From: a virus | Virus record (IMG/VR): IMGVR_UViG_3300025086_000113 | Span: 1 to 34,164 of that record | Strand: one strand, 5' to 3' | DNA: 34,164 nucleotides | In this document: positions 27,914 through 30,323 of the stretch, piece by piece | How the letters are laid out: every line of letters begins with the position of its first letter | Position numbering within the stretch: the stretch's first letter is position 1 | Made by a program: the position numbers and the translations under genes | The notes under the pieces: model-generated | The model's input: the letters and a program-made list of their open reading frames with translations, nothing else | Database searches by the model: none | What the model was told of the DNA's origin: nothing

Positions 27914-28185
27914 CTCAATCTCCGATTTTCAAGTTCACTTTTTAGTTCGGCCAAATATCCATACTGAGACGGAGTGCTTGGCGGGTCAGTAACAAACGCA
28001 TCAATAGCCGCTTGTATATCATACACACCGCCATCTGCAATTTCATCAGCAGCGTCATGCATACCTTGATTGAACTCGTACCTATGGTACAGTTCACAAT
28101 AACACTCACCACACAAATAATCTTCGTCATCTGGTACGAACATTAAGTTGTTTTGGGTATCACAACAAGCACATTTTCTACTCAT
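27910..28185 (-). CDS. Small zinc-finger protein
   Basis: 91 residues, ATG 28185 with CGGAG upstream. The N-terminus carries CACCDTQNN (C5, C7, C8) and LCGECYCELYHRY (C25, C28, C30), a treble-clef or zinc-ribbon-like arrangement, followed by helices (QGMHDAADEIADGG, DIQAAIDAFVTD, YLAELKSELENRRL). Resembles HNH- or recombination endonuclease VII-like zinc cores, but the catalytic His/Asn are not evident. The shared palindrome lies 18 bases before the start. An RNA- or DNA-binding role is likely. Confidence 0.6.
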   Translation of the reverse strand: MSRKCACCDTQNNLMFVPDDEDYLCGECYCELYHRYEFNQGMHDAADEIADGGVYDIQAAIDAFVTDPPSTPSQYGYLAELKSELENRRLR

Positions 28186-28203
28186 TTCAAACTCCGTTTG
28201 TAA

Positions 28204-28219
28204 AGTCCGCTGTCGGACT
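28204..28219. repeat. Shared palindrome, copy 3 of 5
   Basis: Leftward-strand form AGTCCG-ACAG-CGGACT, identical to copies 2 and 4, 18 bases upstream of the ATG at 28185, with the second large stem-loop directly before it. Confidence 0.75.
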
Positions 28220-28290
28220 ATGGTTGGTAGTGTATATAAGTAAATACACTTTCACTATGTTTCAAGTGTATTTACGTTATTCACACTAAA
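28220..28290 (-). promoter_or_regulatory. Large intergenic stem-loop, copy 2
   Basis: Core arms GTAAATACACTT (28240-28251) and AAGTGTATTTAC (28264-28275) pair perfectly; ATAA/TTAT and TAGTGT/ACACTA extend the stem outward to 28228 and 28288. The loop TCACTATGTTTC is close to that of the element at 26947-27006, so the two are diverged copies. The outer arm reaches the stop codon of the gene at 28286. It is followed (leftward) by a shared palindrome, the same order as in copy 1. Confidence 0.6.
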
Positions 28291-28501
28291 GCAAACTGTC
28301 AAGTATTGCCAAAGCGTCAGCTTTGTCTTTCTCTTTGCGATACAAAGCCAAGCAAGCATCAGCTTGACCAGTCACGTAAACCCGAAAGTCAGGCCGTGTC
28401 TCCGGCTCATAGCTACGGCTATAGGCTTTGCTATCCATGCTACGCCAGCTTGAGCCTAAAGGCTTGTGTTTACCCATTGGGGTAATAAATTTTCTAGCCA
28501 T
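28286..28501 (-). CDS. Small basic protein, unknown
   Basis: 71 residues from ATG 28501, with GAGG about ten bases upstream; the in-frame start at 28528 lies within the previous gene. The N-terminal half is basic and Ser-rich (ARKFITPMGKHKPLGSSWRS, AYSRSYEPETRPDF) and the C-terminal half helical (GQADACLALYRKEKDKADALAIL). Several small perfect hairpins lie in the gene (for example TTACCC/GGGTAA at 28470-28485, CAAAGC/GCTTTG at 28310-28325). Not recognised. Confidence 0.55.
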   Translation of the reverse strand: MARKFITPMGKHKPLGSSWRSMDSKAYSRSYEPETRPDFRVYVTGQADACLALYRKEKDKADALAILDSLL

Positions 28502-28730
28502 TGTTTCTGTACCTCGCAATAATTTCATTATGAACTCGATCAGTTCTGATGTTATCTAGCTTATCTTTGATAGCTAGACCCATAGCCCAAGTCATAAAGC
28601 TGATACACCAGCAGATACCACCAGTCATTGGATCAATGACCACGGCTATGATTGCACCACCTGCAAAGCATATGAACGCAATGCACCACCAGAACAGGCA
28701 ACAGACAGTTAAGAAATACTCATAAAACAT
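28494..28730 (-). CDS. Small two-helix membrane protein
   Basis: 78 residues from ATG 28730, with GGAG eight bases upstream; a TTG two codons earlier is less likely. Two hydrophobic segments: about 3-32 (EYFLTVCCLFWWCIAFICF then GGAIIAVVID) and 36-53 (TGGICWCISFMTWAMGLA). A charged helical tail follows (KDKLDNIRTDRVHNEIIARYR). Unusually rich in Cys and Trp. As an early gene it may alter the host membrane or block superinfection; there is no direct evidence. It contains a perfect hairpin GTCATTG/CAATGAC (28624-28640) and a bulged 10-bp one at 28555-28578. Confidence 0.6.
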   Translation of the reverse strand: MFYEYFLTVCCLFWWCIAFICFAGGAIIAVVIDPMTGGICWCISFMTWAMGLAIKDKLDNIRTDRVHNEIIARYRNNG

Positions 28731-28751
28731 TTTCAATACTCCGTATTGTTA

Positions 28752-28767
28752 AGTCCGCTGTCGGACT
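28752..28767. repeat. Shared palindrome, copy 4 of 5
   Basis: Leftward-strand form AGTCCG-ACAG-CGGACT, about 21 bases upstream of ATG 28730, between the stop hairpin of the 211-residue gene and the ribosome site of the small membrane protein gene. Confidence 0.75.
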
Positions 28768-28787
28768 ATGAAAAGGTAGACTGCAGC

Positions 28788-29423
28788 TTACGCTGCAGCC
28801 TTGATTACTGACTTGTCAGTAGAGTCATCTAGCATTTCCAACTGCTCTTTTAGAGCAGCTAGGAACTTGGCTTTGGATACACCGTTCAGTTCACACTGAA
28901 CTAACGCTTCCAAAGCAATGTCGGAAGCTGACAGTGGAGCCTTTGGCTCAACAGAGGACTTGTCCTCAATGGCTGGAACCTCTGGTTCTACAGGTGTCTC
29001 AACCTCTGGTTGAACAGGGTCTTTCTCAACCTTTGGGTTGACAATTTTGTCTACCTCTTTCAAGAGGTCTTTCATGTGGCAAATCGTAGATTTCTTGCCA
29101 AGCAAATCGTTTTCAACGATTACATGGAAGTTCTCAAAGAACTTCATAGCTTCACTTCTTCGTTGCTTTGCAACGGTATGAAGATTGGCATCTTTCAGCA
29201 AAGCTGAATCAGTCTTCTTGCCACCAGACTGCTTTAGCAGTTCAAGACAGATTTCTCCAAGGGAGAACCAGAAGCCATCTTTAGCACAAAGTGCTTTGAA
29301 GCGGTTGACATCACCTCTGGTGATTGACTTATCCCAACGGGATAACACTAAGCCTTTGGCTTGAACAGTGTTGTTAGCTTCAGCTAATTGAGCAGCGAAA
29401 GATTTTTTGGTTGAGTTTGCCAT
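28788..29423 (-). CDS. First gene of the leftward block: helical protein with Pro/Glu linker, unknown function
   Basis: 211 residues, ATG 29423 with TAGGAGA nine bases upstream. The N-terminal ~125 residues are helical and basic (STKKSFAAQLAEANNTVQA, GLVLSRWDKSITRGDVNRF, LGEICLELLKQSGGKK, TVAKQRRSEAMKFFENF). A linker rich in Pro, Glu and Val follows (about 130-165, EKDPVQPEVETPVEPEVP), and a small C-terminal helical domain (SASDIALEALVQCELNGVSKAKFLAALKEQLEML). It could be a regulator, but I do not recognise a DNA-binding motif. At the DNA level it is exceptional: about 22 short perfect hairpins tile the whole gene. The ribosome site pairs into a long leader hairpin. Confidence 0.65.
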   Translation of the reverse strand: MANSTKKSFAAQLAEANNTVQAKGLVLSRWDKSITRGDVNRFKALCAKDGFWFSLGEICLELLKQSGGKKTDSALLKDANLHTVAKQRRSEAMKFFENFHVIVENDLLGKKSTICHMKDLLKEVDKIVNPKVEKDPVQPEVETPVEPEVPAIEDKSSVEPKAPLSASDIALEALVQCELNGVSKAKFLAALKEQLEMLDDSTDKSVIKAAA

Positions 29424-29430
29424 TTGAATT

Positions 29431-29520
29431 TCTCCTAAGTTGAAGGTTTTATAAAGATATATTAATTACTCACCATAAATGGTGATTAATATATCTGTTA
29501 AAACCGTAACAACTTAGAGA
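29431..29520 (-). promoter_or_regulatory. Long leader hairpin sequestering the ribosome site of the first leftward gene
   Basis: Nested arms: CTAAGTTG (29435-29442) with CAACTTAG (29510-29517), GGTTTTA (29445-29451) with TAAAACC (29499-29505), GATATATTAAT (29456-29466) with ATTAATATATC (29485-29495), and TCACCAT (29470-29476) with ATGGTGA (29479-29485), about 35 bp in total. On the leftward message the AGGAGA ribosome site forms the 3' base of this stem, pairing with a UCUCU segment. This predicts translational control or RNase III cleavage of the leader. Confidence 0.7.
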
Positions 29521-29681
29521 GATTTTTCCTGTGACGCATCATGCCATCGTCTGCCCGTGCCGTTTCCCGTGTGGTTGCAGGAAACTACGTTTCCGAAACT
29601 GGTGCGTGAAACTCGTGAGGGACTGTGACCCGTTAGCAACAGGGGGTGTGGTATTTCTGCAACATCTTTAGATGTTAATTT

Positions 29682-29697
29682 AGTCCGACATCGGACT
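29682..29697. repeat. Shared palindrome, copy 5 of 5
   Basis: Leftward-strand form AGTCCG-ATGT-CGGACT, in the non-coding region 258 bases upstream of the start at 29423, among the tiled hairpins. It is the only copy not close to a start codon. Confidence 0.7.
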
Positions 29698-30030
29698 TGT
29701 TCCACCTTTGGTGAATTAGGTGTATCATCTCTCCACTTTCAGTGGATTTCTGTAGCACTGACCTTTACAGTCATGCTAAAGCATGGCAACTGTTACCACA
29801 ACAGTTGTTTCACAACTGCAGAGTATTGTTTTTGTTGCATATTCCTTGAATATGTCTGCTGATTACAGGCAGAATGAGGGCATTTATCCAAATACCTACC
29901 CATAATACGCAGCATTTGGCGCACACCATGACGGGTATGCGTGGGCCACCCCCGGGCGTACTGGATATATATACACAGAAATACACAGATCAGGTAAATT
30001 GATTGTTAACCACAGAAGCAACTGACATGT

Positions 30031-30096
30031 ACCCTATGCACAAGCATTGTGCAATTGCCTAAATATTAGGCATATGTAATTATTTTGCATAGGGGG
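30031..30096. promoter_or_regulatory. Cruciform-like element upstream of the rightward promoter
   Basis: CCCTATGCA (30032-30040) pairs with TGCATAGGG (30086-30094). Between them stand two perfect hairpins, TGCACAA/TTGTGCA (30037-30053, loop GCA, sharing its TGCA with the outer arm) and TGCCTAA/TTAGGCA (30056-30072, loop ATA). The outer 3' arm ends four bases before the -35 hexamer at 30099. It could bind a regulator or form a multi-arm RNA structure on leftward transcripts. Confidence 0.6.
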
Positions 30097-30098
30097 TA

Positions 30099-30127
30099 TT
30101 GACATACTTGACAAAATCTGGTATAAT
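30099..30127 (+). promoter_or_regulatory. Consensus sigma70-type promoter, rightward
   Basis: TTGACA at 30099-30104, 17-bp spacer, TATAAT at 30122-30127: both hexamers are perfect and the spacing is ideal. It would drive the genes from 30324 on with a leader of about 190 bases. The operator-like palindromes lie directly downstream, so repression is likely. A perfect host-type promoter suggests early expression by the host RNA polymerase; no phage RNA polymerase gene is visible. Confidence 0.85.
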
Positions 30128-30154
30128 TATATAACTAACACACCCCACAGTTAA
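30126..30154 (-). promoter_or_regulatory. Probable leftward promoter overlapping the rightward one
   Basis: On the leftward strand TTAACT (30154-30149) is followed, after 17 bp, by TATAAT (30131-30126). The two promoters share the palindrome TATAATTATA (30122-30131) as -10 regions. The leftward -35 lies inside the ACAGTT-A-AACTGT operator-like site, so a protein bound there would block it. It would transcribe the replication block with a leader of about 690 bases. Confidence 0.55.
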
Positions 30155-30276
30155 ACTGTACACTTAACTGACTTTATAGTTAAGATATATAAATCACTAG
30201 ACTGTACAGTTTAACTGTACAGAGTTAGATGGTACTAAATTTTCTTTGCTAACTCACTTTAACTGTACACTTAACT
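30147..30276. promoter_or_regulatory. Operator-like repeats with the half-site AACTGT(AC)
   Basis: Site 1: ACAGTT-A-AACTGT (30147-30159). Site 2: CTGTACAGTT, one T, AACTGTACAG (30202-30222), a 21-bp near-perfect palindrome. Site 3: TTTAACTGTACACTTAACT (30258-30276), which repeats 17 of its 19 bases from 30152-30169, in site 1's flank. CTTAACT/AGTTAAG (30163-30184) adds another inverted pair. Spaced sites sharing a half-site downstream of a strong promoter are typical of a phage repressor or Cro-like protein, but no such gene is recognised in the window. Confidence 0.65.
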
Positions 30277-30323
30277 ATACCCCTATAAATAAATATACGT
30301 GTTAAACAAGAAAGTGCTTGACA

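Follow-up and report, generated by a model that had tools for sequence, protein, structure and literature searches.

A conserved array of DNA-type mini-hairpins tiles a gene and its leader in HMO-2011-like phages

The window (the whole 34,164-base viral record analysed here) belongs to an HMO-2011-like phage, with a DNA polymerase that shares 78% identity with the enzyme of Puniceispirillum phage HMO-2011 and 67-69% with those of Roseobacter phages CRP-1 and CRP-345. PMC9038755 describes phages of the HMO-2011 type as dominant and widely distributed at sea; its main text does not contain the terms hairpin, stem-loop, palindrom or secondary structure. The gene studied here is tiled with short perfect hairpins and is preceded by a hairpin-rich leader and a conserved non-coding element (Table 1). 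Its counterpart in HMO-2011 lies at 54168-54785, and remote homologs are found at the same position in CRP-1 (gp01, profile E 2e-32) and CRP-345 (gp01, 1e-29); judged by annotation order, the gene opens the early/replication module. No relative was confirmed in bacterial or archaeal genome contigs, and there is therefore no prophage context.

We could not assign the product of the gene to a family by searching Pfam, PHROGs or the PDB sequences; a Pfam match to ToxA (E 0.01), below its cut-off, was rejected. The structure model is all-helical (pLDDT 79, pTM 0.57). A fold search returned no Foldseek match at E ≤0.001, VIA-align gave no row with Z ≥5 among 665 chains, and BFVD contained one match at E ≤0.001, S4S2E1, which is 62% identical and carries no name. 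R88 and R89 are invariant across the alignments.

Table 1. Features of the locus in window coordinates; loop letters are those of the sense strand
Feature	Position	Strand	Remarks
Hairpin 7 bp, loop 4	28781..28798	-	GTAA, a GNNA loop
Hairpin-tiled gene	28788..29423	-	211 aa, predicted all-helical protein, family not recognised
Hairpin 7 bp, loop 2	28806..28821	-	
Hairpin 7 bp, loop 3	28842..28858	-	AAA
Hairpin 7 bp, loop 4	28884..28901	-	GTGA
Hairpin 6 bp, loop 2	28954..28967	-	
Hairpin 6 bp, loop 3	28999..29013	-	
Hairpin 6 bp, loop 4	29026..29041	-	
Hairpin 7 bp, loop 2	29053..29068	-	
Hairpin 7 bp, loop 3	29105..29121	-	GAA
Hairpin 8 bp, loop 3	29127..29145	-	
Hairpin 6 bp, loop 3	29161..29175	-	AAA
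Hairpin 6 bp, loop 3	29194..29208	-	
Hairpin 6 bp, loop 2	29228..29241	-	
Hairpin 6 bp, loop 3	29253..29267	-	
Hairpin 6 bp, loop 3	29310..29324	-	encodes ITRGD here, ITKGD/ICKAD/ISKAD in relatives
Hairpin 7 bp, loop 3	29329..29345	-	TTATCCC/GGGATAA here, TTGTCCC/GGGACAA in relatives
Hairpin 6 bp, loop 2	29374..29387	-	
Hairpin-rich leader	29424..29960	-	from gene to conserved element
Longer inverted-repeat stem-loop	29427..29524	-	GGTTTTA...TAAAACC, ends just before the start codon of the tiled gene; self-match 77%
Hairpin 7 bp, loop 2	29470..29485	-	apex of the long leader stem-loop
Hairpin in fixed context	29580..29594	-	TTTC ... TGCAA; stem variable in relatives
Hairpin 7 bp, loop 2	29661..29676	-	
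Hairpin AGTCCGA/TCGGACT	29682..29697	-	GTCCRAnnTYGGAC or GTCCGacagCGGAC there in most aligned relatives
Hairpin 6 bp, loop 3	29732..29746	-	GAA
Hairpin 6 bp, loop 2	29772..29785	-	
Hairpin 8 bp, loop 5	29787..29807	-	
Hairpin 7 bp, loop 3	29838..29854	-	
Conserved element, non-coding	29963..30014	-	TGTGGTTAAC...CCTGATCTGTGTA...TGTGTATA (also TGTGGTTAAC...CCTRATCTGTGTA); strongly conserved; candidate origin/regulatory site
Sigma-70-like promoter (10/12)	30126..30154	-	candidate transcript start for leader and gene

The longer stem-loop of the leader has counterparts in aligned relatives, in which its inner stem changes, and a role in translation control is possible. Rfam covariance models gave 0 matches at gathering scores within the window.

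Density and extent of the hairpins

The initial annotation reported about 25 perfect hairpins in 1.1 kb, where chance predicts about one, running through the coding gene and its leader, and our counts bear this out. Between 28781 and 29880 we found 25 non-overlapping hairpins with a perfect stem of at least 6 bp and a loop of 2-6 nt, versus 1.40 (s.d. 1.11, maximum 5) in 200 dinucleotide shuffles; for stems of at least 7 bp the numbers were 13 versus 0.39. That every arm is perfectly complementary, as also stated there, follows partly from having sought perfect stems, and single hairpins are lost and gained between relatives. Of the 85 hairpins in the 34,164 bases, 31 fall within 28001-30000. 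Codon choice had been dismissed as the cause, rightly so: the tiled gene alone has 16 hairpins (loops of 2-5 nt in this test) versus 1.80 (maximum 6) in 100 shuffles that preserve the protein and its codon usage. All 20 genes tested in this way, the window's included, exceeded the maximum of 100 shuffles, the weakest (L016) with 4 versus 3. The density of the hairpin zone is thus far above codon shuffles, and above the rest of the window and of the relatives' loci.

The stems are mostly all different, as claimed, except that TCAACC occurs twice and AGTCCG/CGGACT three times (28204-28219, 28752-28767 and 29682-29697). The latter hairpin also recurs, in the version GTCCAAnnTTGGAC, in CRP-1 and CRP-345. 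A regular interval of about 28 bp was not found, the spacing in the window's leader and gene being irregular with gaps of 1-94 nt; such gaps, together with the differing stems, do not fit a CRISPR array, in agreement with the initial annotation.

Hairpins are dense throughout 28781-29880, but the zone proved wider than this, reaching from about -600 to +3000 of the gene start in relatives. Summed over 23 items, there are 9-11 hairpins per kb in the leader, 16-17 in the gene and 10 at +600-1000; past +1000 the density drops through 5.9, 4.7, 3.3 and 1.9, and is near background by 3-5 kb, while upstream of -600 it equals the control. In 41 of 50 items TGTGGTTAAC precedes the gene by 562-723 bp, and the zone begins about 100 bp past this element: the density is 5.2 in the 100 bp before the element (two conserved hairpins), 1.5 in the first 100 bp after it, and 9.8-18.0 at 100-400 bp.

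The array is conserved among relatives. In each of the first 22 homologous loci (three of them nearly identical; L006 and L007 were dropped as duplicates of L005, and the partial L023 was left out of some counts) the gene carries 10-30 hairpins per kb versus 2-5 elsewhere in the locus. A profile search gave 71 loci, of which 16 apparent duplicates, judged by eye from identity and coordinates, were removed; in 54 of the remaining 55, which still include near-duplicates such as L074/L078, L100/L101 and L103/L104, the gene has at least 5 hairpins per kb versus 0.4-1.5 in the control, at protein identities of 93-22%. The exception, L080, has 1.7 per kb. Isolates HMO-2011 and CRP-1 have 15 and 14 hairpins in their densest 1 kb, which excludes an assembly artefact; the array of CRP-345 is weaker, with 10 in the densest 1 kb and 5 in the 633-bp gene. 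In the whole genomes of CRP-2, CRP-3 and HTVC033P we detected no gene-profile match better than E 0.58 and no exact TGTGGTTAAC, and the maximum per 1 kb was 4, 5 and 7 hairpins, respectively; these phages thus appear to be without gene, element and hairpin zone.

A scan for the element alone found it in at least 120 viral contig stretches, in some of which the tiled gene was not found. Of 119 element loci taken, 86 were new and distinct (18 were already known and 15 duplicates were removed); 66 had at least 500 bp measurable, and 10 with less than 1200 bp after the element and no gene were left out. The 28 loci with the gene had a median of 10.0 hairpins per kb, with 26 at 4 or more (L157 and L191 fell below), versus 1.3 in the 28 loci where the gene was not found, with two at 4 or more (L153 and L193, which reach 5). 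The element alone is therefore insufficient, and gene and dense hairpins occur together, in a count that ignores ancestry and may represent one clade. Four element loci with no detectable homolog (L153, L193, L123 and L133) carry a different open frame of about 200 codons in a similar place, possibly a very remote relative or a replacement.

Rules of stem, loop and strand

Loops of 2-5 nt are enriched, and those of 0 and 6-10 nt are not. Unique hairpins observed/shuffled numbered 5/5 for loops of 0 nt, 13/7 for 1, 37/6 for 2, 109/4 for 3, 35/5 for 4, 15/5 for 5, 0/4 for 6 and 4-6/5 for 7-10; for longer loops of 11, 15 and 16 nt there were 11 stems versus 4-5 expected. Since loopless palindromes are not in excess, the signal is one of a single strand folding back, and not of a palindrome in double-stranded DNA. 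Stem length is limited as well. Triloop hairpins gain a further pair with a probability of 0.61-0.64 when the stem has 4 or 5 bp and 0.28 when it has 6 bp (distal DNA, 0.19-0.31), and for loops of 3-5 nt generally the chance of extension is raised up to 6 bp and normal beyond; with 2-nt loops it is 0.48 at 6 bp and 0.22 at 7. We found no conserved motif in the sequence flanking 665 hairpins, and no informative pattern in the codon phase of the loops.

The stems barely tolerate G-U/G.T wobble. Relative to distal DNA, perfect stems are enriched 8.6-fold, and stems with one internal mismatch 1.7-fold for G.T, 1.26 for A.C, 2.0 for A.A and 2.35 for T.T, with G.T (72 stems) somewhat above A.C (47). 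At aligned sites, where we counted sequences in which the rest of the hairpin is paired, Watson-Crick pairs fill 1303 of 1406 gene cells and 825 of 878 leader cells, and the mismatches include G.T no more often than A.C (29/30 in the gene, 5/14 in the leader).

The loops are strand-specific. On the sense strand of 58 items, GNA triloops number 107 versus 32 expected (107 of 344 triloops) and TNC 31 versus 24; in 127 items, GNA outnumbers TNC by 129:31 on the side of the element that holds the gene, against 0:4 on the opposite side, where numbers are small, and in the downstream part alone the bias is non-significant (p 0.13). Triloops with A at both ends are likewise raised, and 18 of the 61 tetraloops in the gene are GNNA. 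In stable DNA mini-hairpins generally, GNA is preferably preceded by a pyrimidine and followed by a purine. In leader and gene the loop-closing pair mostly has a 5' pyrimidine; hairpins far downstream or upstream show neither the GNA excess nor a C-closing bias. GNA and GNNA loops are described as making extraordinarily stable DNA mini-hairpins in PMC4686876. The 6-bp stems under GNA loops contain about one G-C pair fewer (p 1e-3 in the leader, 5e-8 in the gene, 2e-5 downstream), also with the closing pair left out (p 1e-4 in the gene, 1e-5 downstream and a weak 0.08 in the leader), and the difference is smaller in the element-found loci (2.15 versus 2.49 G-C pairs, p 0.04). We read this trade-off as a stability threshold in single-stranded DNA. 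Taken together, the loop, stem, wobble and GNA features are the rules of stable DNA mini-hairpins, and not of RNA.

These rules bear on the idea that an early transcript is selected for high structure (for stability, RNase resistance, Rho exclusion or as a decoy), which we consider quite unlikely. Every hairpin does lie within the presumed early transcript, the GNNA loops are stable in RNA too, and RNA folding of the sense strand gives z-scores of -5.2 to -10.2 in seven genes (30 shuffles each). However, z-scores computed with DNA parameters are more extreme in six of the seven, loops of 3 and 2 nt, poor for RNA, dominate, the RNA-stable UNCG loops are not enriched (0/31, 1/61, 2/123), and G-U pairs are scarcely admitted. 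Wobble intolerance and DNA-type triloops likewise disfavour the RNase-resistant transcript and the RNase III decoy put forward in the initial annotation.

Conservation and turnover of single hairpins

Some hairpins keep pairing while their sequence changes. In the leader hairpin at 29580-29594, examined in 18 sequences found by their flank pattern with pairing not required (L097, a pattern hit at -499 that is unpaired and in another context, was dropped), 98.9% of 90 cells pair, there are 24 two-sided changes and all five counted pairs vary; the covariation score is 0.756, versus 0.194 when shuffled and at most 0.254 when slid. Within the gene, the amino acids encoded at 29310-29324 change in pairs across relatives, ITKGD being written as ATCACC-aaa-GGTGAT, ICKAD as ATCTGC-aaa-GCAGAT and ISKAD as ATCAGC-aaa-GCTGAT. 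Among all pairs of sequences sharing 0.70 identity or more, pairing survives 114 two-sided changes and is broken by 112. Pairs broken on one side are common at larger distance, and four-fold sites diverge nearly as much in stems (0.227) as elsewhere (0.261). The density of hairpins is conserved more than each single hairpin. Whether arms drift without compensation has a divided answer: in close relatives they do not drift freely, but individual hairpins turn over at larger distance.

Such turnover, with similar four-fold divergence inside and outside stems, would fit a mutational origin, in which template switching at quasi-palindromes near an origin keeps perfecting inverted repeats and the hairpins have no function. 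Strictly Watson-Crick arms would then come automatically, and a gradient from an origin would be in keeping with it. Template switching can create and maintain stems, according to PMC8794818, and the reverse-complemented loops that we found at homologous sites (for example GTAATC-gta-GATTAC versus GTAATC-tac-GATTAC) resemble the spacer inversion described in PMC8604942; there are 6 among 51 distinct loop pairs in the leader and 1 among 40 in the gene, some with different stems or low-complexity loops. These loops suggest that template switching acts in the hairpin zone too. As the whole explanation we judge it unlikely. Copying should run on, yet stems extend at chance rate beyond 6 bp, and spacer inversion should equalise GNA and TNC, which differ across the element (129:31 versus 0:4). 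Seven non-independent pairs of close relatives (at least 0.85 identity) offer 377 stem pairs, of which 354 have stayed the same and 22 are broken; the broken share is about 6%, where drift of both sites at the average rate would give roughly 20%. Of the two processes offered by the initial annotation, template switching leaves its traces but explains neither the 6-bp limit nor the preference of the loops for one strand. The other, selection for structure, has good support from the conserved density, some two-sided changes, the sharp stem-length limit, the loop/stem trade-off and the codon shuffles.

Possible function and known hairpin systems

The conserved element may be a replication origin or a regulatory site; its conservation and a skew minimum nearby are indirect signs of an origin. 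The cumulative GC-skew minimum lies 0.2-0.6 kb from it in three isolates, but the skew switches where gene orientation does, at the element. DnaA-box-like sites are not enriched in the window (47 versus 49 expected) and their counts alone give no support for an origin; only three sites within 29969-30042 suggest one.

We favour, with about even confidence, a reading that takes in the observed array, strand bias, DNA-type rules, gradient and gene association: the hairpin zone would be an array of selected single-stranded-DNA mini-hairpins, probably serving the product of the gene. Each unit would pair by Watson-Crick rules over about 6 bp and close with a loop of some 3 nt, free in sequence and sufficient in stability, folded on the sense (mRNA-like) strand, and the array would start just past the origin-like element and fade over 3-5 kb. 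We infer that the sense strand becomes single-stranded in vivo, that an origin is close by and that a protein partner is involved. A fork that moves from the element toward the early genes would have the sense strand as its lagging-strand template, and in early transcription it would be the non-template strand, so that either process could expose it. The exposed strand may then fold into mini-hairpins at which a phage protein could dock or nucleate independently of sequence; the likeliest candidate is the tiled gene's own product, made close by and found together with the array. The hairpins would serve to organise or protect the strand exposed beside the origin or early promoter, or to prime it. 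Among the roles listed in the initial annotation, the single-stranded-DNA origin and the hairpin-recognising protein fit best. More tentatively, and short of even confidence, we propose a DNA-level structural code laid over coding genes, a one-sided, graded, sequence-free field of thermodynamically tuned single-stranded-DNA mini-hairpins that would start from a phage origin and have a dedicated reader protein encoded in its middle, and that would be strong enough for amino acids to change in pairs so as to keep the hairpins paired.

Known hairpin systems share some of these features. The promoter hairpins of phage N4 have stems of 5-7 bp. According to PMC4496689, gyrase drives extrusion of a hairpin at the N4 early promoters, in which a sheared G:A pair closes a loop of 3 nt; a structure with a 7-bp stem is given. 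Like the array, they are short DNA hairpins of an early region whose structure is needed while some stem bases are free. GNA triloops of this kind are enriched in the array but make up only 107 of its 344 triloops. The similar geometry would suit cruciforms that supercoiling extrudes and that a virion or early RNA polymerase recognises, either as many weak promoters or as polymerase decoys. We consider this very improbable. N4 has three sequence-specific sites with conserved bases, whereas here dozens of sequence-free hairpins with differing stems and unconserved flanks run through genes; the 1230-, 664- and 623-aa proteins of the window, a partial genome, gave no match to RNA polymerase families in a search that could miss remote polymerases, and none is annotated in HMO-2011.

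Plasmids and single-stranded-DNA phages have single-strand origins and primosome assembly hairpins on the strand exposed by replication, used for priming or protein loading. The array would resemble these through its putative exposure, but they are one or a few large, specific, non-coding hairpins and not a graded coding array. In the target site of the diversity-generating element (DGR) of phage BPP-1, stem structure and not sequence matters and the sense-strand loop has the consensus GRNA (PMC3240598), which recalls the array; it differs in being a single hairpin, of 7-10 bp and a 4-nt loop, next to a variable repeat. The HMO-2011 annotation contains no reverse transcriptase. Quasi-palindromic template-switch hotspots share the perfected arms and inverted spacers with the array, but the available portions of PMC8604942 and PMC8794818 mention no 6-bp limit, strand-biased loop chemistry or gene association. 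A survey of 118,019 genomes counts only arms of at least 10 bp (PMC13155455), and mini-hairpins are thus invisible to it. Among the literature matches listed, some seen in part, there is no description of such an array, which is real, conserved, of DNA type and, within those matches, undescribed.

The pattern points to an undescribed structural signal written through protein-coding genes. If it is selected, a hairpin field running through genes would be a new kind of nucleic-acid signal; if our reading is true, it would give a handle on the start of replication or early expression in HMO-2011-type phages, and would hint at a new family of hairpin-reading proteins. The locus is also a clean natural case of DNA structure, template-switch mutation and protein coding competing in one sequence.

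Three contigs (L044, L059 and L063) start 544-553 bp upstream of the gene, by a C-rich conserved stretch. Contig ends within 1 kb upstream number 6 versus 2.2 expected, three of them at -544 to -553 (45 of 71 loci); a genome terminus near the gene was rejected despite this clustering, as other contigs span the place. Promoter-like sites in the window are no more numerous than in shuffles. On the plus strand, a perfect sigma-70 promoter (12/12, with TG ahead of the second hexamer) overlaps the divergent minus-strand promoter (10/12) at 30099-30154. Beside them, at 30140-30280, lie repeated TTAACTGTACA-like motifs, including the palindrome CTGTACAGTttaACTGTACAG at 30202-30222, which look like repressor operators.
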